Source of the DNA: Daucus carota subsp. sativus
Taxonomy: Eukaryota > Streptophyta > Magnoliopsida > Apiales > Apiaceae
Length of the DNA stretch: 64,000 nucleotides
Reading direction: 5' to 3'
NCBI RefSeq assembly: GCF_001625215.2
Contig: NC_030381.2
Coordinates: 6,535,131 to 6,599,130, forward strand
A program made the position numbers and the translations under genes. The notes beneath the pieces are model-generated. The model had not been told where the DNA came from. It searched no databases and saw only the letters and a program-made list of their open reading frames with translations. Position 1 is the first letter of the stretch. Every line of letters begins with the position of its first letter. This document shows, piece after piece, positions 4,291-52,954 of this stretch.

Positions 4291-5060
4291 TATTCAATAG
4301 TAAAATTGAATATGTTTAGCAATTTTTTTTTAAAGCTATATACATCTAACACATTTAAAGCAAATTAAAATAAACAATAAACAAAAATAATTGTATTTGA
4401 CATATTAAACGATCCGGAAACAAAATCGCTCATCATATATCTTATTTATTTGATTTTCAATATGATTGCATAATCAATTGGATATTTGTCTAACGAAGTT
4501 CATTTCAAATTAGTAAAATTTGGTCCCAATTTGTCAAAAAGAGGCCCACAAATCAAATACTCCCTTACCAAAATCATCATTATTTAATTAACAAAAATTG
4601 TCCTATTATGCAATTACACACTCTTTAGATATGTAACTCGACAATATGAAAAGATTTGTTAAAAATACATATCTAGAAATCACAAAAATTACACATATAT
4701 ATTTGATTAAGAACTTGAAATATATGTTCGGTATGAAGATGAAAAACACACAAATACATGTATCCTGTCATACAAAAATGGAGAAGACAACAACATAATA
4801 CGAATATATAAAGAGACTAAAGTCAAGTTAATCACGTCATTCGATAAACAAACCCAAAAGTTTGGGATTTTGACCGTTGATTTTATAAACTCAAGTCATC
4901 TTGAAAAATCGAAGCGTCGCTAGCCAATTTCATTTATATGATATTCGATTATTTTTATAAGTTACGAAACAAATTATAGAAATTCGACACACACAAAACT
5001 CTCTTTAAAATAAAATTATTAAACTTTAAAGGATCAAGGACCCACCAAAGCTGTAAAAAC

Positions 5061-5072
5061 ATTCAAATGTCT
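5061..5072 (-). other. Conserved post-stop motif of TCP locus 1L
   Basis: Minus-strand reading is ACATTTGAATGT, about 35 bases after the stop codon. The same near-palindrome (GACATT, TG, AATGTC) follows type B and C loci in this window and overlaps the stop codon of type A genes. It is either a 3' regulatory element or a relic of the ancestral stop. Confidence 0.5.
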
Positions 5073-5107
5073 CCTATACGAAACAAAAACATGTCATTTC
5101 ATCGGAC

Positions 5108-5572
5108 CTAAGGCTTCTGGTTCTGCTCTGACGACCCCGGCGCATATGGACCCTGCATCTTCACGCCAATGCCACGAGTGAGAGCCAGCGGCACAGGCCA
5201 CACCTGTTGCGGCTTGCCCCCATCATCAGGCACCATCCAAAACCCTTTCCCTGGTATAAACACGGGAGTGGGGCCCACAGGCGCAGATCCCGAGGTCTTC
5301 GGAACAATATCCTGGCAAACAGGCTCAGCTTTCTTTTTCTCAGGCACTTTGGGGGTCTCAGAAGAGGCCCCACCAACAGCATTAGAAGACGGAGTTGCAG
5401 TGCCACGCCCCTCCGCACGGTCTAGAAGCCACTGAAGAGTTTCATCTTCGGACTTGAAGCCCAAATCTTTTGTCAACTGAGAGATGTGAGCAGCACATGA
5501 AGCGGACATTTTGATATTCTTGCCCCGACCCTGCATCTTGTTGTGCTTGTCACAATCTTTAACCGGAGACAT
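5108..5572 (-). CDS. Class I TCP transcription factor-like, type B short form (locus 1L)
   Basis: Intronless 154-codon gene. I start it at MSPVKD (5572), because the right-arm copy and the other type B genes begin there; an in-frame ATG 11 codons upstream is less likely. The TCP domain spans about residues 10-60: QGRGKNIKM basic region, SCAAHISQLTKDLGF helix I, then DETLQWLLDRAE in helix II. The usual [10 protein letters not shown] stretch is shortened and altered to HNKMQGRG, so DNA contact may be weakened. The conserved domain cysteine (SCAA) remains. The tail carries EKKKAEP, PVFIPGKGFWMVPDDGG and QQVWPVPLALTRGIG, as in locus 4. A TATA-like box lies at 5612-5619. Class I TCPs are dimeric nuclear bHLH-like factors controlling growth genes. 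Expression and function here are inferred only. Confidence 0.8.
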   Translation of the reverse strand: MSPVKDCDKHNKMQGRGKNIKMSASCAAHISQLTKDLGFKSEDETLQWLLDRAEGRGTATPSSNAVGGASSETPKVPEKKKAEPVCQDIVPKTSGSAPVGPTPVFIPGKGFWMVPDDGGKPQQVWPVPLALTRGIGVKMQGPYAPGSSEQNQKP

Positions 5573-5879
5573 GTTTGCTACACACAATTCTCTGGGAATG
5601 TACAACAGTCGTTATATAGTAGCTGGACCAGGCGTTACGTGCACATATCAGAATCTGCTAGATATTATTTTGATACTGCATTTAGTTAGATTTTGTGGGT
5701 CCCATCGTAAATTATACGTTTCTCACGTTAAACTGTCGAATAAATATATTCTTTAATGGATTTTTATTATATAGTCGATTATCTTTTCAATATTTGATTT
5801 TCCAATGCAAAGAATTATCTACTTTATGTAACGGGTCATGCCAACAGTAATGACATAAAATATATAATAAAATATAGTG

Positions 5880-6175
5880 AACAATCTCTTAAAATCTATT
5901 ATTTTATGAATTCCAAAAATATTCATCAGTATTTGAATATTTAACGTATTTTAATGGATACTAAATAATATAAATTGAATATCATTGGATTTTAGGAATA
6001 ATTTAAACTCCTGATTGAATACTATAATATTTTGTAACATAATTTAAAATCCTAATAAAATGCTCCAAGATTATGATACATTTTTTAAAGTTTCAGTTGA
6101 ATACTACCAAATTTCATAAATGAAAAAATCTTTTAAATCTTAATTGATGACACCATACCCTTAAAACATGATATA
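5880..6175. repeat. Dispersed TTGAATAC/GATTTTAAA repeat upstream of TCP loci
   Basis: AT-rich element made of imperfect internal repeats of the kind TTGAATACTACCAGATTTTG and CATAATTTAAAATCC. One edge reads, on the minus strand, like GGGTGTATTCAATT. Equivalent blocks lie upstream of TCP loci at about 11640-11890 and 16480-17905 and in mirrored positions in the right arm (38310-38560, 43255-43480, 48960-49220). It is probably a nonautonomous DNA transposon carried along with gene duplication; termini were not fixed. Confidence 0.5.
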
Positions 6176-6221
6176 TTGATTTTTTTTTATCTGGTAAAAA
6201 GAATGTAAAGCTGAAATTTTT

Positions 6222-6268
6222 AACTGAGACATGTTGCTACATACAATTCTATGACAATGCGTACAATT
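6222..6268 (-). pseudogene. Dead 5' end of a TCP gene
   Basis: Minus-strand reading gives the untranslated leader and start of a type B TCP gene (TACGCATTGTCATAGAATTG, then ATGTCTCAGTTAAA), closely like the leaders of loci 1 and 4, but no TCP domain follows. The mirrored copy is at about 48858-48905, so the gene was lost before the inverted duplication. Confidence 0.6.
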
Positions 6269-6500
6269 AGGGATGACAAAATAATATGATCCCACGGATA
6301 TTAGATCTGAAACTCGAAACTTTGGATATATCGAATCCGAAATTTTTGATTTGAATTCGTATTCAAAATTTTTTGTATTTGTATTTGGATTAAAGTATTT
6401 ACCGATCTGATATTTAATCCGAGATCTGAAATCCAAAATCAATTTCGAAATTGTTTCCGATGTCTGTCTGTCAGTATATAGGCTAATGATTATATACAAA
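6269..6500. mobile_element. hAT-like fragment
   Basis: Starts TAGGGATGACAAAAT, a hAT-style terminus, followed by subterminal repeats around ATCCGAAATTT and GATCTGAAA. It abuts the dead TCP 5' end. The far terminus is not clear. The same element is in the right arm at about 48630-48853, so it predates the duplication. Confidence 0.45.
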
Positions 6501-6599
6501 CCACTAAATGCGAACCTTAAATACAAATTAAGGAAAACTAGGCCCTAATTGGCATTTAACTAATTTTTCAGTAATTATTTATTTAAATATTTAGAAATT

Positions 6600-8300
6600 A
6601 AATGTTCAAACATTAACTAATTCACTAATGTGGGGCCCACTTAGCATTTACTTAATTATTTAAAAGTTACTTATTTATATATATATATATATTTATTAAT
6701 TATTAATTTAGTCACTAATGTGGGGCCCACACGTGGGTCCACCTAGCATTTAATTAATTATTTAAAAATTAAGTAAAAGATATTAATATATATAATTATT
6801 AAATTATTAATTAATTCACTAATATGGGGCCCACATGTGAGGACCGTTTCGCATTAAATAATTTTTTAGATAAATATCGACTAGTAATTAACTAATTCAC
6901 TGATGTGGGACCCATATGTGGGGCCCACTTAGCAATTAATTCATTATTTAATAATTATTTATTAAATAATTAATTTATTCACTAACGTGGGGCCCACATA
7001 GCATTTGATTAAATATTTAATAATAATATAAATAAATATTTAAATAATTAGTTATTAAATTATTAGTAAATTCAATAACATGGGCGCACATAGCATTTAA
7101 TTAATTATTCATTAATTAATTATTTAATATTTAAATATTTATTACGAACTGATTAATTAATTCACTAATGTGGGGCCCACATGTGAGGTCCGCTTAGCAT
7201 TAAACAATATGAAATAAATATCGACTAAATAATTCACTAATTCATTGATGTGGGACCCATATGCGGGGCCACTTAGCATTTAATTCATTATTTAATAATT
7301 ATTTATTAAATAATTAAGTTATTCACAAACGTGGGCCCCGCATAGCATTTGATTAGATATTTAATACTCACTCTCTCCTATTTCATATGACCCTTATTCC
7401 TTTTTGGGACATCAAAAAAAAATAACCTATCATACTTACTATTTTTGAACACTATTTTACACTATTACACCCACCACTTTCTTCCACTATCTCCATTATA
7501 TTATAATATAAACACTATTACACCCACTACTTTTCTCCACTATTTCAACTTTATTATTAAATATTGATAGGTCCCACCGCTTTACACACTTTTCAACTAA
7601 ACTTACTACTTTTTTCTTAATCTCCGTGAAATTCAAACCAGCTCATTCATTTTGGCACGGAGGGAGTAATAATATAAGTAAATATTTAAACTAATTAGTT
7701 ATTAAATTATTAGTTAATTCACTAATGTGGGCCGCTTAGCATTGAATTATTCATTATTTAATTAATTCACAAATGTGGTGCCCACTTAACATTCATTTAA
7801 TCATTAAAATATTTATTAATTAATTATTGATCAAGTCACTAATGTGTGGCCCGCTTAGCATTTAATTAATTATTTATTTAAATATTTAAATAATTATCTA
7901 ATAAATAATTATTAATTCACTAATATGCGGCCCACACGTGAGGCCCACTTGACATTTAATTAATTGTTTGATAATTTAGTATTTAAATATTTATCAAATA
8001 ATTATTAATTAATTCACTAATGTGAGGCCCACTTAGCATTTGGTTAGTTATTCAATAATTAATTACTTAAACATTAATTAATTAATTATTAATTATTAAT
8101 TAAGTCACTAATGTGAGGCTCGTACTTGTGGCTCGCTTTGAAATTAATTAAATATTTGTCAATACTTATTTAAATATTGAAATAATTATTAATAAATAAA
8201 TGAATTGATTCACTAATGTGGAACCAAACATGAGACCACTTAGTGATTAATTAATTAATTAATTATAAATTATTTAATATATATTATATTAATATTATGG
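6600..8300. repeat. Degenerate tandem array with GTGGGGCCCAC core
   Basis: About 15-18 degenerate units of roughly 70-120 bp, each with CACTAATGTGGGGCCCAC, then CTTAGCATTTAATTAATTA. Exact GTGGGGCCCAC occurs at 6630, 6720, 6918, 6987 and 7170. Near variants include TATGGGGCCCAC (about 6824), GTGGGTCC (6733), GTGGGACC (6905, 7250) and GTGGGCCCC (7331). Each full core contains GGNCCCAC on both strands, the published class I TCP consensus. Units become more degenerate toward 8300. A Stowaway MITE interrupts the array at 7377-7666. The mirrored copy is at about 46800-48510. Confidence 0.8.
7377..7666. mobile_element. Stowaway MITE inside the GGGCCC array (left)
   Basis: TA-flanked element of about 290 bp. 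The left end is CTCACTCTCTCC and the right end on the opposite strand is CTCCCTCCGTGCC. The same insertion is at 47456-47755 in the right arm, so it entered before the inverted duplication. Confidence 0.8.
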
Positions 8301-11041
8301 GTCCACTTATCCTAAAGTAACACTAGCCTTGCAACACAAAAGTAGATGTAACACTTTGCTGTGTGCCGTAAGTGGGGACCGCCCCCTGTCTCCACAATTG
8401 GCAGTGTGGGTCCATCCGTGGGGTCCACTTGTCAGAGTGGGACCCACTTTTCTGGAGTAAATTTCTGTGGGTCCTGCCTTTGTGTAGCCACTTTTGCCGA
8501 CGTGTACAGTTCTGGTCTCAATAAAGTTAATAATTAATTAAAATATTTACATAATAATAATACGAAGTGTTACGACATGACGGTCTTATTGTAACACTAG
8601 CGTTCTACTACAACACACACGCTTTATATAGTAACTGTAAGTGAACATGTAATGTAACTTTGTTTCATTAGTGTTATGATAGGTCCAAAAATTATGTATA
8701 TTGTAACACAAAATAGGCGTTACAGTAGAATAGTGTCTTATTTGCCCATCATTGACATAGTGTATATAACTTCCACTCCTGGTAGGTATTTTTTCATTTC
8801 TCTTTTGAATTTTTTGATGAAATTCAGCTAACATATATAAAATCATGAAATTTTTTGGATACATATTTGACTTGTAAAATATCAAGAATATCCATACTCT
8901 CGATATATCTTTCTAGCTTCTCAATATATTTAAGAAAATTCTCAATTTCAAGATTTCCACCAATAGTATGAAGATTCATTTCTTTTCATGAATTTCTTTT
9001 TCCTTACTTTCTCCTAGTGGGATTCTGATTATGAATGTCTGTATAGGTTATCACATACATGCAAGAACCTTATTCTTTTTATAATGACCAAAATCTCTAT
9101 ATTTGTTGAAGCAAAATCCTTCAAATCTATTTTTCGTTTGCTCTAGTTTTTTTGTCCTTCACATATTGTTGACTCTTTATGTCACAAGCCAATAAATCAG
9201 GTGAAACCCTTATTCTATTATCATTTGATTGAGATAAAAAATAGTATGAATGAATGTTAATACGTAATAAAAATACATGAATCTACCCGACCAAGTTCGA
9301 ACATGATAGGTCTTGAGAAAAAAGATTAGAGAGTCTCGAGATTTTTTTATATTTTCAAAGATTGTTTAGAATACATCGTCTATTGTTTATATAAGGACGT
9401 AAAAGACTAACATGAAATAAAAAAAAAAATTGAAGTCAAATAATATTAAAATAACATGATATGTAGTTTTGAGTAAGAACCGAAGATTGTGAGGAAAACT
9501 TATTTGCCATGATTATGCGTTAAATCTCAACATGATCATGTCTTCTTTAAATATTTTCTTACTATTCATTGCATTCTCAACATAATTTTTGGACAAACCT
9601 TTTTATTCCAAGTTTTTCTTCAAAATAAAGGAGATCTTGTCCAAAATCAGTCCCTTCCACTTGTGAAAAACTTGATATCTAATTTTGAGAACTCATCTTG
9701 CATAATTCTTGAATTAAATTTTGATGATCCAAATTTTCAATCACATTATAAATATCCAAGGATAGGTTTTGCATGCCTTTAATATGATATTCACCACCAC
9801 TCCTATCCCCATCTTCATAGGCATTTTAAAAGTTTTTTTAGATATTATTTTCGGATATCCTTGTATTTATCTTCTTCTTTGTAGATATAAAACTTCATCA
9901 CTCAATATTTCATCTCCTTTTTAGTGTGTTTTTTGTACTCTCTACAATATCATATTTTTCTTGAGAACATTAATTCATCAAACACATTATTATCAGGACC
10001 ATAGTAATAAACGTATCATCCCCCTCCTTCACCCATAAACTATTAATTATAATTTTTCTCAATAAACATATTTAAATTGTAAAGTTATAGAAATATACAT
10101 AACCTCAAAATGTCTTCGTACGTTCTTAGTGCATTCTCGAAAATATTTAATTTACAAGGTATCAATTAAAGGACATAAAATTCATTTTTATTTTTTACGA
10201 TTTTTTCACAATCATCCTAAATCTGTATATGAATCATCACGTGGAAGAATCCTATTTTGTTTAGAATGACTAAAATCATTATATTTTAGGTAATAGAAAC
10301 TTTTAACTCTATTTTTATTGTCTTTAAATTTTTTCTCTTCAATATATTGTTGGAACATGTGTTTTCACTGACTAATATAGGTACACCTTCAAATTTTCCA
10401 CATCAAGCCATTAATCATTAAAATGCTTAATTATACTATCATTTGACACAGTAAAAAAGGTTGGATGAAATATATTTTAATTGGTAGTGGAATACATGAA
10501 TCCATCATTATGAATTCGTACACTATAAATTAATAAATAATGGAAAAAATTAGAAAAATCTCAAGATTGTCTTAATATTGTTTGTTTCAAATAATTAAAT
10601 GAAAAATTGTATCAATTTACTTAATTCATAAACTCAATTCTAAAAATTATTTGTTTAATATAATAAAAAAAATCTATTAAAAAGATTAGTCACACCATCG
10701 AAAAATCGTCATCAATAATAAAAAAATGATATTTACATGCTTCATATATTAAAATTATTCATACACATAGCAGTACTCAATATGTAATGTTCAATCCACT
10801 TTTTAATTATTTTTTTAATATTGAGATGATAAATGAAACAAACTATACTTGAAATATATATAATATTCATTTCTGCCTTTCATGTATAATTATAAAATGG
10901 CAGAAATTTATTTTGATGCAAATTTTATAAAACAAAATATATCCTAACCTTGTAAATTCTCAACACTCTCCTCATTCAACGTTAACTCCCCCTGTAAATC
11001 AAAATCCCCAATTCACCAAATCAGACCTAATCTTGTATCCT
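8301..11041. other. Gene-free AT-rich spacer, partly duplicated 3' flank of type A loci
   Basis: At 8370-8447 lie three more TCP-consensus-like sites (GTGGGTCC 8406, GTGGGGTCCAC 8418, GTGGGACCCAC 8437). About 8320-8760 holds repeated GTAACACTA phrases of unknown origin. From about 9000 to 11040 there is an AT-rich block that recurs, diverged, as the 3' flank of the other type A loci (18190-20266 and 63105-64000); shared phrases include TATGAATTCGAACATGATAA and CATTTGACACAG. Reading frames here are short and unconserved. Confidence 0.5.
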
Positions 11042-11569
11042 TCAAATGCCCCCTTTACGAAACCTGATCTTCTTGCCCATCAATACCATCTCATCATACC
11101 CTTCCTCTTCAGCAGAGCTCGCCCTCGCCTCGCAGCTAACGCTGGTCTGGTTTTGGTTCATCTTCATTCCATTTTCCGCCGCCATCCCATACCCTGGCAC
11201 AGACACGGTGCTGGGGCCCACAGGCGCAAGTCCCGAGGTCTTCGAAACATCCTCAGCAGCCCCCTCTTTCGTCTCCGGGACTCTGAGGGACCCATCAGCA
11301 GTTACAGTAGCAGTAGCAGGCACTGTTCCGGTGCCTGTAGCCCTAATAATGGCAAGCTCCGCTTGTTGAAGAAGCCACTGGATTGTTTCACCATCTGTGG
11401 CCAAACCCAACTCTTTGGTCAGTTGGAAGACCCGAGCAGCACAACGAGTGGGCATTCGGATCCTACTGCCCCGACCCTCCACCTTGGTATGCAGGTCTTT
11501 CCTTGGTGCCGGTTGAGAAGGACCACCGCTCACTTGAGAATCATCATTGAAATCTTTTTGTGAAGACAT
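11042..11569 (-). CDS. Class I TCP transcription factor-like, type A (locus 2L)
   Basis: Intronless, 175 codons, starting at MSSQKDF like all type A copies. The TCP domain covers residues 24-80: basic region [17 protein letters not shown] with the class I spacing, helix [14 protein letters not shown], loop, helix [14 protein letters not shown], then [12 protein letters not shown], the signature following class I domains. The domain cysteine (residue 43), associated in the literature with redox sensitivity of class I TCPs, is kept. The tail (81-175) is low in complexity up to about 140, then [12 protein letters not shown], an acidic run EEEGYDE and a basic end [17 protein letters not shown]-like box is at 11613-11622. 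It lies 1 kb downstream of locus 3L in the same orientation and is clearly a tandem duplicate. Function is inferred from family. Confidence 0.88.
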
Positions 11570-12059
11570 GTTTTAATACATACATACAATTGTGGCGATA
11601 CTCATGTGTGTGTATTATATAGCGGTCTACAAATCCATCAACACTTGAATATTATCATATTTTAATGGTTTTTAAATAATATCAATTAAATAGCATCAGA
11701 TTTTTAAGCATAATTTAAAATGCTGATTGAATACTACCAGATTTTGTAATATAATTTAAAATCCTAATCGAATACTCTAAGATTTTGATACATTTTTTTA
11801 AATCCGAATTGAATATCTTTGGATTTCATAAATGAAATAAATATTTTATAATCCGAATTGAATACACCCCTCAACATGATATATTGATCTTTTATGTAAA
11901 AAGAAAGTAAATAGAAAATAATATGCTCAAATGTTTAGCCATATATTAGCATAAATTTTAAATTCTCACTGGAAAAGATATAGTAATATATTAAATTTCT
12001 TACTCACACTACAACAATATCGACTAATTTCGACTAGAAGAAAAATATTTCATTTATCA

Positions 12060-12574
12060 ATAACTCTCTTGAATATGTTGGGTACAGTGATTCATCATTA
12101 TGAATTCGAACACCATAAATTTATAACAAATGGGAAAAATTAGTAAAGTCTCAAGAGTGTCTCTTGATATTGTTTGTACATATCAAATGAATAAATGAAA
12201 AATTGCATCAATTTACTTATATGATAAATTCAATTCTAAAATTTATTTGTTTGGTATAACAAATAAAAAATCTATTAAAGATATTAGTCACAGTACCATC
12301 AAATAATAGTCCACTTTTTAATTAATTTTTTTTTTTAATATTGAGATGATAAATGAAACAAACTATACTTAAAATATTCATTTCTGCGTTTCATGTATAA
12401 TTATAAAATGGGAGAAATTTATTTTGAAGCAAATTTTGTAAAACAAAAAATATCCTAAACCTTGTAAATTCTCAACACTCTCCTCTCATTCAACGTTAAC
12501 TCCCCTATAATCAAAATCCCCTTCACCAAATCAGACCTGCCCCCCTCACTAAATCAGACCTAGTCTTGTATCAT
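12060..12574. repeat. Shared 3' flank between loci 3L and 2L
   Basis: AT-rich spacer closely resembling the stretch at about 10490-11040 downstream of locus 2L (shared phrases such as TTCATTTCTGCG, TTTCATGTATAATTATAAAATG and CTCAACACTCTCCT). It shows that locus 2 and 3 duplicated together with about 0.5 kb of 3' flank. Confidence 0.7.
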
Positions 12575-13126
12575 TCAAATGCCCCCTTTACGAAACCTGA
12601 TCTTCTTGCCCATCAATACCACCTCATCATACTCTTCCTCTGCATCAGAGCTCACCCTCGCTTCGCAGCTAACGCTGGTCTGGTTTTGGTTCGGCTCCGC
12701 CCCATGCGGTACACCCATCCTCATTCCATTTTCCGCCGCCATCCCAAACCCTGGCACAGACACGGGGCTGGGGCCCACAGGCGCAAGTCCCGAGGTCTTG
12801 GAAACATCCTCAGCAGCTCCCTCTTTCGTCTCCGGGACTCTGAGGGACCCATCAGCAGTTACAGTAGCAATAGCAGGCACTGTTCCTGTTCCTGTAGCCC
12901 TAATAATTGCGGGCTCCGCTTGTTGAAGAAGCCACTGGATTGTTTCACCATCAGTGGCCAAACCCAACTCTTTGGTCAGTTGGAAGACCCGAGTAGCACA
13001 AAGAGTGGGCATTCGGATCCTACTGCCCCGACCCTCAACCTTGGTATGCAGGTCTTTCCTTGGTGCCGGTTGAGAAGGACCACCGCTCACTTGAGAATCA
13101 CCCTTGAAATCTTTTTGTGAAGACAT
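12575..13126 (-). CDS. Class I TCP transcription factor-like, type A (locus 3L)
   Basis: Intronless, 183 codons from MSSQKDF at 13126. An upstream in-frame ATG run to 13198 reads through the TATA box and leader and is rejected as start. The TCP domain is at residues 24-80 with [26 protein letters not shown] and [23 protein letters not shown]. The tail contains [17 protein letters not shown], then a short insert with [10 protein letters not shown] absent from loci 2 and 5, the acidic DAEEEYDE and the basic [17 protein letters not shown]-like run is at 13165-13177, about 40 bases before the ATG. It sits upstream of locus 2L in tandem. It is a putative nuclear DNA-binding dimer; no expression evidence is available from sequence. 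Confidence 0.88.
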
Positions 13127-13544
13127 GTTTTGATACATACATTCAGTCATGGCGATACTCATGTGTATATATATATAGCAGTCGACAAATCTATACATGT
13201 GTTATGTACATGAAACGTAAGTCCAGATTTTTGTCATATGATGCGGACGGTATCTGGCCATATCGTATGTTTTGTGCATTGTTGACTACTTAAAAATCTT
13301 TTTAATACAGAGATATTATTTTTTATATTCTACTGGGATCATATAAAATCTACTGGGAAGTTCCAGTGCTACCACCTATCATTAGATTCATACGTATTAG
13401 TGGATCATTTGAAATAAAATATGTATCTTACCTTTTCAATATTTTCTTTTTATTTGATTAAGATGGTGATTTTATCACTGAGCTTTTATTTTTATTTTTA
13501 CTTAAATATATAATCATAACCATTTTAAAGAGAACATGAAAATA

Positions 13545-13582
<38 letters not shown>

Positions 13583-15168: not shown

Positions 15169-15711
15169 CTAACGCTTCTGGTTCTGACCTGACCACCCCG
15201 GCGCATACGGACCCGGCATCCTCATGCCAATGCCACGAGTGAGAGCCAGCGGCACAGGCCACACCTGTTGTGGCTCGCCTCCATCTTCAGGCACCATGAA
15301 AAACCCTCTCCCTGGTACAAACACGGGATTGGGATTCCCAGGCGCAAATCCCGAGGTCTTTGGACCACCATCCTGGCCAACAGGTTCAGCTTTCTTTTTC
15401 TCAGGGACTTCCAGGGCCTCAGAAGAGGCGGCACCAGTAGCATTAGCAGACAGATCTGCATTGCCAGGCCCCTGAATCATGGACTCCTCCGCACGTTCTA
15501 GAAGCCAGTCAACAGTTTCACCCTTGGACTTGAAGCCCAAATCTTTCGTCAATTGGGAGATCTGAGCAGCACAAGAAGCCGGCATTTTGATCCTCCTCCC
15601 CCGACCTTCCACCTTGGTTTGCTTGTCCTTCTTGGGTTTTGGAACAGAACTGGTTTGTTGGGATCCGCTGTTGGCTTGGGAATCACTGTCATAATCTTTA
15701 ACTGTAGACAT
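15169..15711 (-). CDS. Class I TCP transcription factor-like, type B (locus 4L)
   Basis: Intronless, 180 codons starting at MSTVKDYDSD. The TCP domain is at residues 29-78: [20 protein letters not shown] basic region and start of helix I, QISQLTKDLGF, then GETVDWLLERAEES. The class I ATGTGT signature after helix II is replaced by IQGPGNADLS, so this is a divergent member. The tail has EKKKAEP, PVFVPGRGFFMVPEDGG at 129-145, QQVWPVPLALTRGIG at 148-162 and a Gln/Arg-rich end. A TATA-like box is at 15752-15760, about 45 bases upstream. The encoded protein is identical to the right-arm copy at 39333-39875. It is probably the best-preserved type B gene; role inferred from family only. Confidence 0.88.
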   Translation of the reverse strand: MSTVKDYDSDSQANSGSQQTSSVPKPKKDKQTKVEGRGRRIKMPASCAAQISQLTKDLGFKSKGETVDWLLERAEESMIQGPGNADLSANATGAASSEALEVPEKKKAEPVGQDGGPKTSGFAPGNPNPVFVPGRGFFMVPEDGGEPQQVWPVPLALTRGIGMRMPGPYAPGWSGQNQKR

Positions 15712-15960
15712 GATTGCTTAATACAATTCTCTGGCAATGCGTACAACAGTCTTTATATAGTACTCTGGATGAGGTGTTATTAATTACGTGCATATATCAA
15801 AATCCCGTAGATATTATTTTGATACTCCATTTTGTTAAATCTGGGGTTCCCATGGTATATCATACGTTTCTGGTGTTGATTATTGAATAAATATCATCTT
15901 TTAATGGATTTTATTATCCAGGCAATTACATTTTTCTATATTCGATTTTCTAAAAAATTA

Positions 15961-16213: not shown

Positions 16214-16694
16214 TATCAATATTTATGTTGGTCATGCTAACGTGTAATTACGTGTTTAATGGAGACTTAATTGATTTTTATATAGTGTATGGATTTTAAT
16301 GTATCGTATCTGATTTTGATTTTAGACGGATTCGAGATAAAATTTTGTGTAGTTGATGTAGAGTATTTAGGATTTAAGTACAATACTTCAAAATCTCATG
16401 AATTTTGGTATAATTTCAAATATAAAAAAATAGACCGAATAATCATACAAAATTCATCATTTTATATAGGTCAGAAAAATTCATCAAATTTGAATATCAT
16501 CATATTTTAATGATTATTAAATAATCTCAATTGAATACCATCGGATTTTTAAGCATAATTTAAAACCTGATTAAATACTATTGAATACTACCAGATTTTG
16601 TAACATAATTTAAAATCGTAATCAAATACTTCAAGATTTTGATATATTTTTTAAAATCCAAGTTGAATATCTCTGGATTTCATAAATGAAATAA

Positions 16695-17862
16695 GGGAAA
16701 ATAGATTTTTTTGCCACTCAATTTATAGTGTTTTTAGAAACTTACCACCCAACTAATTTTTTTATTCTTTTAGTCACTAATGTTAGGTTTTGTTTTGTTT
16801 TTAGCCACCAGCTTAGGTTTGGATTTGATTACTAGCATTATGATAATTTTTTGTATCATCATTTATACATAGTGATAGTATCTAATATTTTGATGATGTG
16901 TTGTATGTTTATATCCTTATATATAGCAATAGTAATATAAAATGAGCCGATGAAAAATTAAAATCAGAAATAATAGTAATCAGATTCTAAAAATTCAATA
17001 AATCATGAATATGAAATCAATGACTTCAAACAATTCACCCTCTCTCATAAGATAAAGTGTAATTGAGTGATATGACGGATCATCTTTCGCTATTAAACTT
17101 TCAATGGACTAGCTCAGTCTAAGATCTTTCTTAAATTTATCTCAAAAAATTTTAATAACTTTATCTTATTACAATTTTCGAGATAAATAAATAAAGAGGA
17201 AAACTTAATTTTCGATGATTGTCCTCTATATATAATGCATCATTTTATATTATTATTACTCCCTCCGTCCCTCTCATTAGTTTACAAATTTTCTCTAGTG
17301 CTTAGCATGTATTTAAGATTCTTATAAAACATAGTTTCATAACTTATTTTTGTGTGTAAAAATTCAAACGCTGAATTTTCATTCGGAAGAAAAAAAATAA
17401 AGTTATATATGAAACTACATCTTTTAAAGGCCATATAATACGTGTAAAATTCTTATCATCCAAGGTAAGCGATCTTGAAGACATAAAAAGTACTACATAT
17501 AAAAATACAAATATATATCAAATCATCAAAATATTACCGACTACCACTATATTTTAATAATGATACACATAAAATGTAATGCTAATAATCAAATCTGAAC
17601 CTAACTTCAGTGACAAAAAAAGAGCTAAATCTAACACTAGTGAGTAAAATAAAAAAAATTATAGCTCAGTGGTTAGTTTCTAAAAACACAATAAGTTTAG
17701 TGATAAAAAATTATCATAATGCTCGTAATCAAATCCAAACCTAAGTTGGTGGCTAAAAATAAAACTAAACCTAACATTAGTGACTAAAAGAATAAAAAAA
17801 TTAGTTGGGTGGTAAGTTTCTAAAAACACTATAAGTTGAGTGACAAAAAAATCTATTTTCCC
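16695..17862. mobile_element. Nonautonomous Mutator-like element, left arm only
   Basis: A 1168-bp insertion bounded by 9-bp direct repeats ATGAAATAA (16686-16694 and 17863-17871). Ends are GGGAAAATAGATTTTTTTGC and its inverse, extending to terminal inverted repeats of roughly 150-170 bp. The right terminal repeat is preceded by a second diverged copy (about 17575-17715), a tandem duplication inside the terminal region. A one-ended Stowaway-like start (CTCCCTCCGTCCC at 17259) lies inside. There is no coding capacity. The right arm has the empty site at about 38355. Confidence 0.88.
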
Positions 17863-17984
17863 ATGAAATAAATATTTAATAATCCGAATTGAATACACTC
17901 CCTCAACATGATATATTGATTTTTTTTATGTAAAAAGAATGTAAGAGAATATAAATGCATATGTTGGGTGTAGTAAATGTGTCA

Positions 17985-18177
17985 CGGTTTTTCTATGGTG
18001 TGCCCATGGGCACACCATAAGCACTAACTCCTATGAGTTTGGTGCATTTTTATTGGTCACCTAATCATAAATAAAGATGGCCCCCCTGCATTTACATCAA
18101 GTCCACCAATCAAAATCCACCAAAACCATCAATTTTAGTGTATAATGTGTGCCCATGGGCACACACTAGACAAACCC
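17985..18177. mobile_element. Short MULE-type MITE, left arm only
   Basis: 193 bp flanked by 9-bp direct repeats AATGTGTCA (17976-17984 and 18178-18186). Ends are CGGTTTTTCTATGGTGTGCC and, from the other side, GGGTTTGTCTAGTGTGTGCC. Each end contains the palindrome GTGCCCATGGGCAC. The right arm has the empty site near 38234-38242, so insertion followed the duplication. Confidence 0.87.

Positions 18178-24556: not shown

Positions 24557-24596
<40 letters not shown>
24557..24596. repeat. TA microsatellite at the MULE edge (left)
   Basis: Pure TA run directly abutting the GGGTCAAGTTCC end of the Mutator-like element. The mirrored run is at 31648-31702. Confidence 0.85.
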
Positions 24597-25741: not shown

Positions 25742-25746
25742 ATATA

Positions 25747-33346: not shown

Positions 33347-35362
<2,016 letters not shown>

Positions 35363-39292: not shown

Positions 39293-39332
39293 GACTGTTG
39301 TACGCATTGCCAGAGAATTGTATTAAGCAATC

Positions 39333-39875
39333 ATGTCTACAGTTAAAGATTATGACAGTGATTCCCAAGCCAACAGCGGATCCCAACAAACCAGTTCTGT
39401 TCCAAAACCCAAGAAGGACAAGCAAACCAAGGTGGAAGGTCGGGGGAGGAGGATCAAAATGCCGGCTTCTTGTGCTGCTCAGATCTCCCAATTGACGAAA
39501 GATTTGGGCTTCAAGTCCAAGGGTGAAACTGTTGACTGGCTTCTAGAACGTGCGGAGGAGTCCATGATTCAGGGGCCTGGCAATGCAGATCTGTCTGCTA
39601 ATGCTACTGGTGCCGCCTCTTCTGAGGCCCTGGAAGTCCCTGAGAAAAAGAAAGCTGAACCTGTTGGCCAGGATGGTGGTCCAAAGACCTCGGGATTTGC
39701 GCCTGGGAATCCCAATCCCGTGTTTGTACCAGGGAGAGGGTTTTTCATGGTGCCTGAAGATGGAGGCGAGCCACAACAGGTGTGGCCTGTGCCGCTGGCT
39801 CTCACTCGTGGCATTGGCATGAGGATGCCGGGTCCGTATGCGCCGGGGTGGTCAGGTCAGAACCAGAAGCGTTAG
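39333..39875 (+). CDS. Class I TCP transcription factor-like, type B (locus 4R)
   Basis: Intronless, 180 codons, encoding exactly the same protein as locus 4L. Domain order: Ser/Gln-rich start, PKPKKDK basic patch, TCP domain 29-78 ([30 protein letters not shown]), EKKKAEP, then PVFVPGRGFFMVPEDGG and QQVWPVPLALTRGIG. The surrounding non-coding DNA differs from the left arm at scattered sites, so the unchanged protein suggests either constraint, local gene conversion or simply youth. The post-stop motif GACATTTGAATGTC is at 39888-39901. Confidence 0.88.
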   Translation: MSTVKDYDSDSQANSGSQQTSSVPKPKKDKQTKVEGRGRRIKMPASCAAQISQLTKDLGFKSKGETVDWLLERAEESMIQGPGNADLSANATGAASSEALEVPEKKKAEPVGQDGGPKTSGFAPGNPNPVFVPGRGFFMVPEDGGEPQQVWPVPLALTRGIGMRMPGPYAPGWSGQNQKR

Positions 39876-41555: not shown

Positions 41556-41940
41556 TATTTTCATGTTCTCTTTAAAATAGTTATGATTATATATTTAAGT
41601 AAAAATAAAAATAAAAGCTCAGTGATAAAATCACCATCTTAATCAAATAAAAAGAAAATATTGAAAAGGTAAGATACATATTTTATTTCAAATGATCCAC
41701 TAATACGTATAAATCTAATGATAGGTGGTAGCACTGGAACTTCCCGGTAGATTTTATATGATCCTTTCCAAAGCATATGTTACTAATATTTTAAGAATAT
41801 AAAAAATAATATCTCTTTATTAAAAAGATTTTTAAGTAGTCAACAATGCACAAAACATACCATATGGCCAGATACCGTCCGCATCATATAACAAAAATCT
41901 GGACTTACGTTTCATGTACATAACACATGTATAGATTTGT
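39902..41940. other. AT-rich spacer with (ATA)n microsatellite
   Basis: Mirror of 13127-15142. No gene seen; the frame at 40546-40743 is closed in the left arm. The trinucleotide run is at about 41496-41551. At about 41740-41800 the arms differ in a short stretch. Confidence 0.5.
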
Positions 41941-41997
41941 CAGACTGCTATATATATACACATGAGTATCGCCATGATAGTATGTATGTATCAAAAC

Positions 41998-42549
41998 ATG
42001 TCTTCACAAAAAGATTTCAAAGGTGATTCTCAAGTGAGCGGTGGTCCTTCTCAACCGGCACCAAGGAAAGACCTGCATACCAAGGTTGAGGGTCGGGGCA
42101 GTAGGATCCGAATGCCCACTCTTTGTGCTACTCGGGTCTTCCAACTGACCAAAGAGTTGGGTTTGGCCACTGATGGTGAAACAATCCAGTGGCTTCTTCA
42201 ACAAGCGGAGCCCGCAATTATTAGGGTTACAGGAACAGGAACAGTGCCTGCTATTGCTACTGTAACTGCTGATGGGTCCCTCAGAGTCCCGGAGACGAAA
42301 GAGGGAGCTGCTGAGGATGTTTCCAAGACCTCGGGACTTGCGCCTGTGGGCCCCAGCCCCGTGTCTGTGCCAGGGTTTGGGATGGCGGCGGAAAATGGAA
42401 TGAGGATGGGTGTACCGCATGGGGCGGAGCCGAACCAAAACCAGACCAGCGTTAGCTGCGAAGCGAGGGTGAGCTCTGATGCAGAGGAAGAGTATGATGA
42501 GGTGGTATTGATGGGCAAGAAGATCAGGTTTCGTAAAGGGGGCATTTGA
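41998..42549 (+). CDS. Class I TCP transcription factor-like, type A (locus 3R)
   Basis: Intronless, 183 codons from MSSQKDF. Mirrored partner of locus 3L, nearly identical: within the domain-flanking signature it has IIRVTGTGT where the left copy has [12 protein letters not shown] basic region [17 protein letters not shown], helix [12 protein letters not shown], helix [14 protein letters not shown]. The tail has [28 protein letters not shown] and [17 protein letters not shown]-like run is at 41948-41957. It is followed in tandem by locus 2R. Function is inferred from family. Confidence 0.88.
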
Positions 42550-43555
42550 ATGATACAAGACTAGGTCTGATTTAGTGAGGGGGGCAGGTCTGATTTGGTG
42601 AAGGGGATTTTGATTATAGGGGAGTTAACGTTGAATGAGAGGAGAGTGTTGAGAATTTACAAGGTTTAGGATATTTTTTGTTTTACAAAATTTGCTTCAA
42701 AATAAATTTCTCCCATTTTATAATTATACATGAAACGCAGAAATGAATATTTTAAGTATAGTTTGTTTCATTTATCATCTCAATATTAAAAAAAAAAAAA
42801 AAATTAAAAAGTGGACTATTATTTGATGGTACTGTGACTAATATCTTTAATAGATTTTTTATTTGTTATACCAAACAAATAAATTTTAGAATTGAATTTA
42901 TCATATAAGTAAATTGATGCAATTTTTCATTTATTCATTTGATATGTACAAACAATATCAAGAGACACTCTTGAGACTTTACTAATTTTTCCCATTTGTT
43001 ATAAATTTATGGTGTTCGAATTCATAATGATGAATCACTGTACCCAACATATTCAAGAGAGTTATTGATAAATGAAATATTTTTCTTCTAGTCGAAATTA
43101 GTCGATATTGTTGTAGTGTGAGTAAGAAATTTAATATATTACTATATCTTTTCCAGTGAGAATTTAAAATTTATGCTAATATATGGCTAAACATTTGAGC
43201 ATATTATTTTCTATTTACTTTCTTTTTACATAAAAGATCAATATATCATGTTGAGGGGTGTATTCAATTCGGATTATAAAATATTTATTTCATTTATGAA
43301 ATCCAAAGATATTCAATTCGGATTTAAAAAAATGTATCAAAATCTTAGAGTATTCGATTAGGATTTTAAATTATATTACAAAATCTGGTAGTATTCAATC
43401 AGCATTTTAAATTATGCTTAAAAATCTGATGCTATTTAATTGATATTATTTAAAAACCATTAAAATATGATAATATTCAAGTGTTGATGGATTTGTAGAC
43501 CGCTATATAATACACACACATGAGTATCGCCACAATTGTATGTATGTATTAAAAC

Positions 43556-44080
43556 ATGTCTTCACAAAAAGATTTCAATGATGATTCTCAAGTGAGCGGT
43601 GGTCCTTCTCAACCGGCACCAAGGAAAGACCTGCATACCAAGGTGGAGGGTCGGGGCAGTAGGATCCGAATGCCCACTCGTTGTGCTGCTCGGGTCTTCC
43701 AACTGACCAAAGAGTTGGGTTTGGCCACAGATGGTGAAACAATCCAGTGGCTTCTTCAACAAGCGGAGCTTGCCATTATTAGGGCTACAGGCACCGGAAC
43801 AGTGCCTGCTACTGCTACTGTAACTGCTGATGGGTCCCTCAGAGTCCCGGAGACGAAAGAGGGGGCTGCTGAGGATGTTTCGAAGACCTCGGGACTTGCG
43901 CCTGTGGGCCCCAGCACCGTGTCTGTGCCAGGGTATGGGATGGCGGCGGAAAATGGAATGAAGATGAACCAAAACCAGACCAGCGTTAGCTGCGAGGCGA
44001 GGGCGAGCTCTGCTGAAGAGGAAGGGTATGATGAGATGGTATTGATGGGCAAGATCAGGTTTTGTAAATGGGGCATTTGA
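43556..44080 (+). CDS. Class I TCP transcription factor-like, type A (locus 2R)
   Basis: Intronless, 174 codons from MSSQKDF. The TCP domain is identical to that of locus 2L ([32 protein letters not shown]). The C-terminus differs: where sister genes end [12 protein letters not shown] this one ends [11 protein letters not shown], losing one Lys codon and changing Arg to Cys and Gly to Trp. The otherwise strictly kept basic tail is thus degraded in this copy only. TATA-like box at 43503-43511. The short dispersed repeat lies just upstream (43255-43480). Confidence 0.86.
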
Positions 44081-46799: not shown

Positions 46800-48510
46800 T
46801 GTTACTTTAGGATAAGTGGGCCCATAATATTAATATAATATATATTAAATAATTTATAAATAATTAATTAATTAATTACTAAGTGGTCTCATGTTTGGTT
46901 CCACATTAGTGAATCAATTCATTTATTTATTAATAATTATTTCAATATTTAAATAAGTATTGACAAATATTTAATTAATTTCAAAGCGAGCCACAAGTAC
47001 GAGCCTCACATTAGTGACTTAATTAATAATTATTAATTAATTAATTAATGTTTAAGTAATTAATTATTGAATAACTAACCAAATGCTAAGTGGGCCTCAC
47101 ATTAGTGAATTAATTAATAATTATTTGATAAATATTTAAATACTAAATTATCAAACAATTAATTAAATGTCAAGTGGGCCTCACGTGTGGGCCGCATATT
47201 AGTGAATTAATAATTATTTATTAGATAATTATTTAAATATTTAAATAAATAATTAATTAAATGCTAAGCGGGCCACACATTAGTGACTTGATCAATAATT
47301 AATTAATAAATATTTTAATGATTAACTGAATGTTAAGTGGGCACCACATTTGTGAATTAATTAAATAATGAATAATTCAATGCTAAGCGGCCCACATTAG
47401 TGAATTAACTAATAATTTAATAACTAATTAGTTTAAATATTTACTTATATTATTACTCCCTCCGTCCCAAAATCAATGAGCTGGTTTGAATTTCACGGAG
47501 ATTAAGAAAAAAGTAGTAAGTTTAGTTGAAAAGTGTGTAAAGCGGTGGTACCTATCAATATTTAATAATAAAGTTGAGATAGTGGAGGAAAGTAGTGGGT
47601 GTAATAGTGTTTATATTATAATATAATGGAGATAGTGGAAGAAAGTTGTGGGTGTAATAGTGTAAAATAGTGTTCAAAAATAGTAAGTATGATAGGTTAT
47701 TTTTTTTGGATGTCCCAAAAAGGAATAAGGGTCATATAAAATAGGAGAGAGTGAGTATTAAATATCTAATCAAATGCTATGCGGGGCCCACGTTTGTGAA
47801 TAACTTAATTATTTAATATATAATTATTAAATAATGAATTAAATGCTAAGTGGCCCCGCATATGGGTCCCACATCAATGAATTAGTGAATTATTTAGTCG
47901 ATATTTATTTCATATTATTTAATGCTAAGCGGACCTCACATGTGGGCCTCACATTAGTGAATTAATTAATCAGTTCGTAATAAATATTTAAAAATTAAAT
48001 AATTAATTAATGAATAATTAATTAAATGCTAAGTGCGCCCATGTTAGTGAATTTACTAATAATTTAATAACTAATTATTTAAATATTTATTTATATTATT
48101 ATTAAATATTTAATCAAATGCTATGTGGGCCCCACGTTAGTGAATAAATTAATTATTTAATAAATAATTATTAAATAATGAATTAATTGCTTTGTGGGCC
48201 CCACATATGGGTCCCACATCAGTGAATTAGTTAATTACTAGTCGATATTTATCTAAAAAATTATTTAATGCGAAACGGTCCTCACATGTGGGCCCCATAT
48301 TAGTGAATTAATTAATAATTTAATAATTATATATATTAATATTTTTTACTTAATTTTTAAATAATTAATTAAATGCTATGTGGACCCACGTGTGGGCCCC
48401 ACATTAGTGACTAAATTAATAATTAATAAATATATATATATAAATAAGTAACTTTTAAATAATTAAGTAAATGCTAAGTGGGCCCCACATTAGTGAATTA
48501 TAGTTAATGT
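46800..48510. repeat. Degenerate tandem array with GTGGGCCCCAC core (right)
   Basis: Mirror of 6600-8300, read in the opposite orientation (units TTAAATGCTAAGTGGGCCCC then ACATTAGTGAATTAATTAA). It keeps several exact cores, most numerous between about 47780 and 48495. It lies between TCP loci 2R and 1R. Confidence 0.8.
47456..47755. mobile_element. Stowaway MITE inside the GGGCCC array (right)
   Basis: Mirror of 7377-7666. The left end CTCCCTCCGTCCC is closer to the family consensus than in the left arm. Confidence 0.82.
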
Positions 48511-48857
48511 TTGAACATTTAATTTCTAAATATTTAAATAAATAATTACTGAAAAATTAGTTAAATGCCAATTAGGGCCTAGTTTTCCTTAATTTGTATT
48601 TAAAGTTCGCATTTAGTGGTTTGTATATGATCATTAGCCTATATACTAACAGACAGACATCGGAAACGATTTCGGAATTGATTTTGGATTTCAGATCTCG
48701 GATTAAATATCAGATCGGTAAATACTTTAATCCAAATACAAATACAAAAAATTTTGAATACGAATTCAAATCAAAAATTTCGGATTCGATATATCCAAAG
48801 TTTCGAGTTTCAGATCTAATATCCGTGGGATCATATTATTTTGTCATCTCTAATTGT

Positions 48858-49541: not shown

Positions 49542-51740
49542 TGATGTGCTAAAATATTACCTTTTAAAATCGCAAGCGCACGATCACCGTTTTAATATTT
49601 AAGATTCGTCCACAGAGATTAAAATTATTTTCGCAACCTATTATTATTAACCTAGGCGGATTAGAACCATATTTTTAGAATTTCGGGTTTATTAGCTAAT
49701 TAATGAGCAGGAGAAATTGACTACTAATTCGAATACAACCAATTAAACTAGAAATTAACTAAAATTAAACTCGCAAATACAAGACTTAAAAGTTACAAAT
49801 AATTAAGAAAGTTTCTGCATGATATCTCTAAAAACTAAGCTAGCCTGTAACATATTATTATCAACAGAAGATAACCACGTTGGCTACCCAGCCATTTACT
49901 TAATCTAAAAGAAATATAAAATGAAATAAACTAGGCACATGTACTAAATACACTCACAAAAACAATTCCTACACCAAGCTAAACGCGGGGTCACTGAACC
50001 TAGTAAACTAACATGACGCTATAAAGGAAATAAAAGAAAACTACAGAAAGTTATACTCCACTGCTAGACTTAAAAATAAAAGAAACGAAGCAAGCCAACA
50101 ACTCGAAAAACATGAACTAATCAAAACAACTCGGTAAAAGAACATGGACTCGTTGAATTAACTCGGAATAAACTCGGCTTGCGACTCAGCTACTGGCTAA
50201 GAACAGACTCAACAAAGCATAGGAGACTCGACCCACAAACTCGACGCAGCCAAAACAGCCGATCCAAACTAAGCTTGCAAGAAACGAACTCAGCTTTGGA
50301 CTCGGGAAGAAACAGGGGACTCAGTAAAAGAAAGCACAGCAGGAAACTAACAAACAAAAGCCAACAATCGATTGAAAACTTTGAAATAAACTCAAAGAAA
50401 CCAGTCTTAAAACTAGACTAAAACGCAACCAACAATACACAAACTCAGCAACGGCTCAACTCGGTTATGCAGCCATAAAGAAACTAAACCCAGTTTAAAC
50501 TTACGGTAAATCAACATTCGACTCACTACACTACTAGCATAAAAGAGATACACGCAGCAATATTCAAATGAACAGCCATGGTGACTTGGCAGAAATACAA
50601 ATCAACAAACCAGAACTCGAAGCAAAACCCATCAATTTACAAACCCAAACAAAAACGCAGCAGCAAACTCGCAGACAAAACCAACAAACTCCGCTAAGTT
50701 TGACTCGGAAACTCACGCCTTAGACTCGGACAAACAACAGTGAACTCAGCGAAAACAAAACAAAAACTCAGAGCACCACACTGACTCGACCAGGACTCAG
50801 TAACACTACTCGACATTAACTGAAAACAGATCCCATGACGCAGACATTGACTCGGCGAATACAAAGCAAAACGGCGCAGCAAAAACCATTAACTTGACTT
50901 GGTATAAGCAGAGTAGTGGTGATTTTGAACTTAAACTAAAACAGGGGAAAAGAACGTTTAATTAAAAAGGAACAGGGGACACAAGAGGAGTATATGTTTT
51001 AACCGAAACAGAGTAATAATAAACTGGGTTTGTTAAACGAGGGTTTTTTTTAATAGCTAAATTTTTAATTACTTTTATAATTACTAATTAGCAATTTAAG
51101 CAATAAAATCAAGAACAAGAAAATTTGGGGTTTTAGATCTAAACCCTAACACAAATTGATTTTGTGCTAGGATTTAGTTGACTATTTCAAGAGATCACAA
51201 ATCTATACTACTCACAAGCTCAATGATTCTTCATTTCCCAAAAGCCCTTAAGCATATATGGTGGTACTAAGAATCATATTACTTGTAGAAAGAAAATAGA
51301 GACAACACAAGATCAAGCTAAAAGAAAATTTGCACTAAAATAAAAAGTGTTTACAAATATGGTATGAAATTGAGAGAACAAAAGAAGATCTAGCACTATA
51401 CTACCTACCAACTGGGAAAAGACTAGGTTAAAAAGAAGATCCTTACAAGTAAAGAGATGGGGGAATTTATAGCTAAAGATTTAGGGTTTAGGGGTAGGGT
51501 GGCTAAATCTTGACCATCCATGCGCCTTGTGTGTTGGGTAGATCATAGCCCTCCATGTGCCCCTTACTTGCCAACTCATTTTGATTTTCTTCTTTTCTTT
51601 TCTTTTTCTTCCATTTTCTTGCCTTTTCTCTTTTTTCTTTATTTATCTACATTTTCCTGAAATAAAATAAATAAGCGATTAATACTACGAAAATAAACAA
51701 AAAAATAGGCATTTAAATATGCAAAAATATGGACTAATCA
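49542..51740. mobile_element. LTR-type element remnant (solo-LTR-like), right arm only
   Basis: 2199 bp beginning TGATGTGCTAAAATATTACC and ending ATGGACTAATCA (TG...CA), flanked by 5-bp direct repeats TGTAG (49537-49541 and 51741-51745). No capsid or polymerase coding is seen and no second internal copy of the ends, so it looks like a single long terminal repeat left behind, probably of the Ty3/gypsy superfamily (tentative, from the CGCAAGCGCACGATCA-like start). The interior is rich in GACTCGG-type phrases. The left arm has the empty site at about 5577-5581, so it is younger than the inverted duplication. Confidence 0.8.
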
Positions 51741-51750
51741 TGTAGCAAAC

Positions 51751-52215
51751 ATGTCTCCGGTTAAAGATTGTGACAAGCACAACAAGATGCAGGGTCGGGG
51801 CAAGAAGATCAAAATGTCCGCTTCATGTGCTGCTCACATCTCCCAGTTGACAAAAGATTTGGGCTTCAAGTCCGAAGATGAAACTCTTCAGTGGCTTCTA
51901 GACCGTGCGGAGGGGCGTGGCACTGCAACTCCGTCTGCTAATGCTGCTGGTAGGGCCTCTTCTGAGACCCCCAAAGTGCCTGAGAAAAAGAAAGCTGAGC
52001 CTATTTGCCAGGATGCTGTTCCGAAGACCTCGGGATCTGCGCCTGTGGGCCCCACTCCCGTGTTTATACCAGGGAAAGGGTTTTGGATGGTGCCTGATGA
52101 TGGGGGCAAGCCGCAACAGGTGTGGCCTGTGCCACTGGTTCTCACTCGTGGCATTGGCGTGAGGATGCAGGGTCCATATGCGCCGGGGTCGTCAGAGCAG
52201 AACCAGAAGCCTTAG
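51751..52215 (+). CDS. Class I TCP transcription factor-like, type B short form (locus 1R)
   Basis: Intronless, 154 codons from MSPVKDCDKH, the partner of locus 1L with a handful of substitutions (GKKIKM instead of GKNIKM in the basic region, ICQDAVPKT, VLTRGIGVRM). TCP domain at about 10-60 with QGRGKKIKMSASCAAHISQL and DETLQWLLDRAE. Tail PVFIPGKGFWMVPDDGG and QQVWPVP. The reading frame is fully open, but the LTR-type element lies 10 bases upstream of the ATG, cutting it off from the native TATA box. Any expression would depend on sequences inside that element. Confidence 0.8.
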   Translation: MSPVKDCDKHNKMQGRGKKIKMSASCAAHISQLTKDLGFKSEDETLQWLLDRAEGRGTATPSANAAGRASSETPKVPEKKKAEPICQDAVPKTSGSAPVGPTPVFIPGKGFWMVPDDGGKPQQVWPVPLVLTRGIGVRMQGPYAPGSSEQNQKP

Positions 52216-52954
52216 GTCCGATGAAATGACATGTTTTTGTTTCGTATAGGAGACATTTGAATGTTTTTATAGCTTTGGTGGGTCCTTGATCCTTTAAAGT
52301 TTAATAATTTTATTTTAAGGAGAGTTTTGTGTGTGTCGAATTTCTATAATTTGTTTCGTAACTTATAAAAATAATCGAATATCATATAAATGAAATTGGC
52401 TAGCAACGCTTCGATTTTTCAAGATGACTTGAGTTTATAAAATCAACGGTCATAATCCCAAACTTTTGGGTTTGTTTATCGAATGACATGATTAACTTGA
52501 CTTTAGTCTCTTTATATATTCGTATTATGTTGTTGTCTTCTCCATTTTTGTATGACAGGATACATGTATTTGTGTGTTTTTCATCTTCATACCGAACATA
52601 TATTTCAAGTTCTTAATCAAATATATATGTGTAATTTTTGTGATTTCTAGATATGTATTTTTAACAAATCTTTTCATATTGTCGAGTTACATATCTAAAG
52701 TGTGTGTAATTGCATAATAGGACAATTTTTGTTAATTAAATAATGATGATTTTGGTAAGGGAGTATTTGATTTGTGGGCCTCTTTTTGACAAATTGGGAC
52801 CAAATTTTACTAATTTGAAATGAACTTCGTTAGACAAATATCCAATTGATTATGCAATCATATTGAAAATCAAATAAATAAGATATATGATGAGCGATTT
52901 TGTTTCCAGATCGTTTAATATGTCAAATACAATTATTTTTGTTTACTGTTTATG
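52216..52954. other. 3' flank of locus 1R, end of right arm
   Basis: Mirror of 4370-5107. No gene seen. Palindrome homology ends at about 52954 where satellite DNA starts. Confidence 0.6.

Follow-up and report, generated by a model that had tools for sequence, protein, structure and literature searches.

A palindrome of TCP genes on carrot chromosome 1 as one part of a larger tandem array with an apparently flipped block

Do two mirrored, TCP-bearing arms on carrot chromosome 1 form a palindrome in its own right, born in one event and kept alike by exchange between its arms, or are they part of something larger? The stretch in question, called the window here, is 64,000 nucleotides of Daucus carota subsp. 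sativus chromosome 1 (C1:6535131-6599130). Positions are given in window coordinates, with negative values and values above 64,000 lying outside it. A sequence-only reading had described the arms as a self-contained palindrome. Our comparisons confirm the inverted repeat in the assembly and indicate that it is one part of a dynamic TCP tandem array in which one block appears flipped, so the description as a self-contained palindrome holds only in part. We consider it likely that such a flipped block explains the palindrome, and that a collapsed arm and a displaced contig also belong to this locus.

The geometry is clear in the assembly. Self-BLAST and an alignment of the arms placed arm A at 4370-25220 (20.9 kb, genes leftward on the minus strand) and the inverted arm B at 52953-31023 (21.9 kb, plus strand), with an asymmetric core of 5.8 kb between them (25221-31022), which bears out the two arms of about 21 kb mirroring a 5.8-kb core that had been described. 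Mismatches were found at 218 of 19,453 aligned sites (1.12%), along with 38 gap events, and an identity of 98 to 99% across 20 kb is evidently not due to chance. The assembled sequence therefore has the build of a large inverted repeat, with long similar arms that are inverted relative to each other and separated by a spacer, and neither the window nor the surrounding 264 kb contains any Ns. Six TCP loci lie in each arm, labeled T1, T2, T2', T4, T2'' and T6 in this analysis; given that they are on the minus strand in A and on the plus strand in B, all face outward, as the earlier description had it and as Pfam, tblastn and a genome-wide search with PF03634 agree. The outer limits proposed at about 4370 and 52954 hold as the ends of homology between A and B, whose outer flanks are unrelated, but not as boundaries of the duplicated sequence. 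Position 52954 marks only the end of A/B homology, given that B and a third copy, C, remain alike further out, into a 175-bp satellite; position 4370 is crossed by two A-type units elsewhere in the assembly, which continue into the left flank.

The genome-wide PF03634 search returned 92 matches, fragments and broken copies included: 47 at C1:6,408,944-6,722,750, 8 at C1:42,792-77,321, 1 elsewhere on chromosome 1 and 36 on other contigs. Within the cluster, the minus strand carries 36 of the 47 matches; the remaining 11, all on the plus strand, make up one unbroken block at 32.9-62.9 kb of the window. The cluster DNA that was fetched for comparison covers 264 kb, between the far left (6.405-6.455 Mb) and the far right (beyond 6.719 Mb). 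Copy C lies in it at 135423-174473, 80 to 120 kb to the right and oriented as A. Two insertions interrupt it, one of 22 kb (GACCG duplication, TG...CA ends) and one smaller, and the T2' stretch is absent from it. More distant copies to the left are about 80 to 94% alike. Searching the genome with 2 kb around T4 returned four matches of at least 98%, namely A, B, C and D1, a unit on a distant contig described below, and only B was on the minus strand. Paralogous blocks thus share gene and spacer order, as in a local cluster of tandem or segmental duplications. A second inverted repeat pairs 32626-67542 with 174473-103316; it is mostly colinear except among its T6-type repeats, with 98 to 99% identity in the T1-T6 part and 93 to 98% beyond.

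We propose that the array grew as blocks of very roughly 17 to 40 kb were repeatedly duplicated, mostly in one orientation, and that one block (about 31-66 kb, with 11 TCP matches) came to stand opposite to the other 36 cluster matches. Because the T1-T6 part of this block has near-identical relatives on both sides, A to the left and C to the right, a single flip would create two mirror images at once: the A/B palindrome of the window and a larger B/C palindrome with its center near 85 kb. The flip may have been one event, in which either a tandem unit was inverted or the C block was duplicated in inverted orientation.

The relationships among the copies are consistent with this proposal. Across 15,764 sites compared three ways, divergence was 1.11% between A and B, 1.14% between A and C and 0.84% between B and C. 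Private differences numbered 109 in A, 62 in B and 66 in C (4 sites differing in all three left out), and the difference between 109 and 66 was significant (p = 0.0014). At the outer edge, the satellite is common to B and C, and A changes there to other sequence. Given the lowest divergence between B and C and their shared satellite edge, A and B would not be nearest relatives if rates are similar. On that assumption we rejected A and B as sister copies, and the supposition that the arms stem from one palindrome-forming event is unsupported, the nearest relative of B being C. Assumed substitution rates of 0.7-1.3e-8 per site per year would place the A/B split at about 0.4-0.9 million years. 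Independent insertions are present in A, B and C, supporting the earlier view that the arms have evolved separately since the duplication; the instability it had expected of a gene-bearing inverted repeat is likewise supported.

Arm A itself appears to be composite. The window lies in the carrot DH1 v3 assembly (440.7 Mb, nine sequences, a maximum of 64.5 Mb, 563 contigs), for which a doubled haploid was sequenced using PacBio, Nanopore and Hi-C (PMC10581907). Near the start of its chromosome 1 stands a 42.85-kb contig (C1:35024-77873) flanked by 100-N gaps (34924-35023 and 77874-77973). One unit of the contig, D1, corresponds to window -2419 to 25180, with a 53-bp deletion and a 3.4-kb insertion; a second, D2, corresponds to window 85-11978 and is joined to D1 head to tail at an exact junction of 25180 with 85, so that the left flank of A (85-4369) belongs on the contig to a 25.1-kb unit. 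D1 has no mismatches to the window from -2419 to 9797, 6.8 kb of flank included; in D2, 15 mismatches fall between 1789 and 6012, with no others before 11788. Arm A is a mosaic of these two near-identical units, agreeing with D1 at 15 of 15 differing sites in 1789-6012 and with D2 at 3 of 3 sites in 9797-11088. These patterns suggest that arm A is probably a collapse of two head-to-tail units, and they argue strongly that the contig belongs at the 6.54-Mb locus and has been displaced. The plant is homozygous, yet D1 and A lay claim to one and the same left flank. This is most simply explained if the chromosome sequence skipped from the first unit into the second, so that one unit of 25 to 28 kb was omitted. 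The copy number of this stretch in the reference is therefore probably too low. The earlier concern about read depth would be justified in the opposite sense, as the sequence suggests a copy missing from the reference, not a surplus one. The apparently displaced 42.85-kb contig also affects how chromosome 1 begins in the assembly.

Several observations weigh against a flipped block combined with a collapsed arm, and the alternatives draw on them. A and B share an inner sequence of 1.6 kb (23633-25220) that is missing from C, which means that B cannot be a simple copy of C as it now stands. By eye, an interrupted resemblance of about 36 bases (25220-25255 with 30640-30605) continues past the inner edge in A and B and is also absent from C. 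It is possible, though unlikely in our judgment, that one of A and B gave rise to the other in a single inverted duplication and that C is a later copy of B, a course that is also compatible with B and C as the youngest pair. Against this course, the satellite edge common to B and C is missing in A, and the second palindrome would need a further inverted event. It is also unneeded, since the cluster TCP matches outside the B block all point one way. C may have lost the 1.6-kb inner sequence through exchange among its T6-type repeats.

The collapse also meets contrary details. At 4 sites in 11788-11955, within the last 200 bases of the contig, A agrees with D1 and not with D2; we took these for contig-end errors because 1-bp gaps are dense there. 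As far as 12323, about 40 small gaps further separate D1 from the window, and 36 of these fall to the left of 4370. The contig-end gaps are mostly single-base deletions, as expected if they reflect thin, unpolished coverage. The private differences of the contig, its 3.4-kb insertion and its 53-bp deletion could mean that arm A is correct and that the contig represents either a genuine duplication of its own or a structural variant that segregates within the DH1 stock. We find this doubtful, given that the contig is isolated between two 100-N gaps with ends dense in 1-bp gaps, has no mismatches to the left flank of the window, and carries the two units between which A switches.

The orientation of B could itself be wrong in the assembly, and the true locus an all-direct array in which the B block was misplaced or misoriented at the repeats of the palindrome centers. 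Both centers consist of repeats, an element designated S being present in both and an element designated X also in the first; another contig of the locus was placed 6.5 Mb away between gaps; and the v3 assembly included a guided gap-filling step (PMC10581907). We nevertheless rate such an error as rather improbable, given that the 264 kb contain no Ns and that an older gene order looks mirrored too. A 2026 survey of carrot TCP genes used an older assembly, and its DcTCP1-DcTCP15 on chromosome 1 occupy the same locus (PMC12980029). For seven of these 15 (DcTCP5, 6, 7, 9, 10, 12 and 14), both length and mass (to within 0.3 Da) agree with open frames in the fetched DNA. On the short-read v2 assembly, the order DcTCP9 to DcTCP14 would read T1, T2', unknown, T2', perhaps T1, and the gene at 58843 (PMC12980029). 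This order looks mirrored around DcTCP11 and gives weak support for the arrangement. Strand is not given, DcTCP12 has the mass of the A copy and not that of B, DcTCP11 is unmatched, and DcTCP13 shares only the length of the T1 frame, its mass matching none. The v3 assembly also drew on related mapping data, which weakens the order as support for orientation. We therefore rejected the v2 gene order as proof of orientation and kept it as weak support.

What the arms carry bears on whether they are kept alike. Among ten frames in the window, seven matched PF03634 at 41.7 to 78.4 bits (curated cut-off, 23 bits) and are presumed TCP loci; the other three were unmatched. Membership in the TCP family follows from a domain above the curated Pfam cut-off. 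All six loci of arm A pass the profile, and those of arm B were found through tblastn and the genome-wide search. In arm A (minus strand), frames open from a methionine occur in T1 (5111-5611, 154 amino acids), T2 (11045-11572, 175 amino acids), T2' (12578-13201) and T4 (15172-15717, 180 amino acids, identical in A, B, C and D1). The two alternative starts of T2' give the masses of the published DcTCP10 and DcTCP12. T2'' of arm A (20267-20716) is an open frame without the N-terminal start that is present in B and C, and T6 (22980-23357) is broken, with one TAA within the profile match. Arm B (plus strand) carries T6 at 32902-33279, broken as in A; T2'' at 35512-36096, open unlike its counterpart in A and 161 amino acids long; T4 at 39327-39875; T2' at 41935-42549; T2 at 43553-44080 (174 amino acids); and T1 at 51709-52215 (154 amino acids). 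To the right of B, inside the putative flipped block, lie T6-type TCP loci and fragments (54672-59244, plus strand) and a T2-type locus within an arm of the second palindrome (62614-63102, plus strand).

Arm-to-arm gene conversion, as in Y-chromosome palindromes, had been suggested for these arms. As a rule it is unsupported: the 237 sites private to A, B or C stand in random order (151 switches compared to 152.3 expected), their longest runs are ordinary, and we found no overall homogenization between the arms. In palindromes of the Y/W type, the arms are homogenized and more alike than either is to other copies; here, B is closer to C. One unusual run remains, free of mismatches between A and B over 1,261 sites (1.26 kb, 11060-12324) and seen in 1 of 5000 shuffles; more than half of this stretch is missing from C. 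The loci themselves are uneven. T4 (549 bp) and T6 (378 bp) show no differences among A, B and C, and T4 is also identical in D1. Divergence among copies is 0.38 to 0.95% in T2, 0.85 to 1.18% in the spacers and 0.99 to 2.18% in T1 and T2''; between A and B, T2 and T2' differ by 0.36 to 0.38%. If T4 were neutral, about 8.8 changes would be expected, but only 2.0 at synonymous sites, where none was seen (chance 0.13). With so few synonymous changes expected, constraint alone may suffice for the identity of T4. Ratios of nonsynonymous to synonymous substitution rates (dN/dS) were 0.48 to 0.93 in the 11 of 21 pairs with dS of at least 0.07, which suggests weak constraint; the other 10 pairs had too few changes (0.46 to 2.61, two undefined). 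The identity of T6 despite its broken frame is left unexplained by the argument from constraint used for T4. Over 632 bases (22940-23572), broken T6 together with the sequence around it is the same in A and B.

These patterns can be read in other ways. We give an outside chance to a double TCP palindrome that is not sex-linked, that is still changing in copy number, in which conversion restricted to the gene, or strong selection, holds four copies of T4 to exactly one sequence as the spacers drift, and in which at least one hidden 25-kb unit differs by about 0.1 to 0.4%, all of these holding jointly. Less probable still is a palindrome maintained by gene conversion to keep its TCP copies alike, as on Y and W chromosomes. 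The identity of T4 and T6 against the diverging spacers, the small differences in T2 and T2' between A and B and the 1.26-kb run would fit it. The random order of private differences, the divergence of T1 and T2'', which equals or exceeds that of the spacers, and the few synonymous changes expected in T4 make it very unlikely. That two haplotypes were joined in the assembly, the case that the sequence-only reading had said would overturn it and one for which about 1% divergence would fit the heterozygosity of an outcrossing plant, has a probability close to nil and is ruled out for our purposes by the doubled haploid source, which leaves no second haplotype (PMC10581907), by the four copies of at least 98% and by the unrelated outer flanks of A and B.

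Other features of the window record its repeat history. The arm-specific insertions with target duplications that had been described are borne out. One of 2.2 kb is private to B, being absent from A and C (49542-51745, plus strand), and reads as a solo long terminal repeat from its TG...CA ends and CTACA duplication. Two are found only in A and D1: a 1177-bp insertion (16686-17862) with a 9-bp duplication ATGAAATAA and long inverted termini, which we take to be MULE-like, and a 202-bp insertion (17976-18177) with a 9-bp duplication AATGTGTCA and inverted termini. Element X at the inner end of A (24592-25085, plus strand) adjoins an AT microsatellite, is repeated inverted at 25253-25746 and recurs in B at 31158-31653. 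Elements in or beside AT microsatellites (window 24557-25746 and 31648-31702; C1:61945-65378) have somewhat similar termini; they comprise X, the start of the core repeat and the 3.4-kb insertion of D1, as if one element family targeted such microsatellites. Core element S (26679-30262, plus strand), which holds a weak FAR1-like remnant below the curated cut-off, has further copies in the center of the second palindrome (65938-69777, 72955-71104 and 105073-103316, outside the window). The 175-bp satellite (52949-54328, plus strand, 7.9 copies) forms the outer edge of B. Both arms also conserve tandem arrays that are rich in AT and have GGGCCCAC within their units (6540-8300 and 46830-48580). 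Outside the window, a 1.8-kb self-inverted stretch (91%, 69531-71349) lies near the center of the larger inverted repeat, and the 22-kb insertion in C (139429-161854) holds several retroelement-like frames and further long open frames.

The locus matters for how the carrot TCP family is thought to have expanded. The survey on the older assembly counted 50 TCP genes, of which 36 were PCF, with 16 on chromosome 1 and 22 tandem pairs, and it names whole-genome duplication as the main driver (32.0%) (PMC12980029). In v3, a single cluster holds 47 of 92 TCP-domain matches, and a further 8 lie on the contig that seemingly belongs to it, which argues against whole-genome duplication as the main driver. 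The word stems "palindrom", "inverted" and "mirror" are absent from the text of PMC12980029. Literature searches of open-licence papers that joined TCP (also with Daucus carota) to palindrome terms returned nothing, and searches on carrot TCP genes and palindromes showed no such locus among the results listed. Expression of DcTCP7 and DcTCP10 reportedly increases as the root develops (PMC12980029). The TCP genes here may therefore matter for the root, given that copies match the masses of these two. A domestication sweep overlapping Vrn1 includes homologues of CHE, TCP23 and TCP7 (PMC10581907), and Vrn1 was mapped to chromosome 2, where four TCP genes are listed (PMC5241283). We disfavored this cluster as the source of the sweep genes, which more likely lie on chromosome 2. 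Four TCP-domain matches at C2:57.036-57.055 Mb, spaced nearly as those four genes are (PMC5241283), are possibly the TCP genes of the sweep (PMC10581907). Smaller local groups of TCP matches occur at C7:22.405-22.464 Mb and C3:61.868-61.921 Mb. For the reference, the apparent fault is one omitted 25-kb unit with its contig placed 6.5 Mb away. Surveys of palindromes should also take caution from this locus, given that one flipped block in a tandem array can mimic two palindrome births.

Among known systems, the closest in sequence to T2 compared here is Arabidopsis TCP15, a class I TCP. Carrot T2 matches the DNA-binding domain of TCP15 (PDB 7VP3 and 7VP6) over 63 residues without gaps (5.8e-27). 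Relative to TCP15, the carrot copies are short (154 to 195 amino acids), and the basic region of the T1 type is divergent. To our knowledge, carrot is hermaphrodite and without sex chromosomes. Gene palindromes have been described on the W chromosome of the willow Salix purpurea, where they lie in the sex-determination region and show evidence of gene conversion (PMC7023750). In contrast, the private differences of the carrot copies form no tracts. The two systems are nevertheless alike in having two consecutive palindromes over 200 kb, near-identical stretches of 20 kb and duplicated regulatory genes (PMC7023750).

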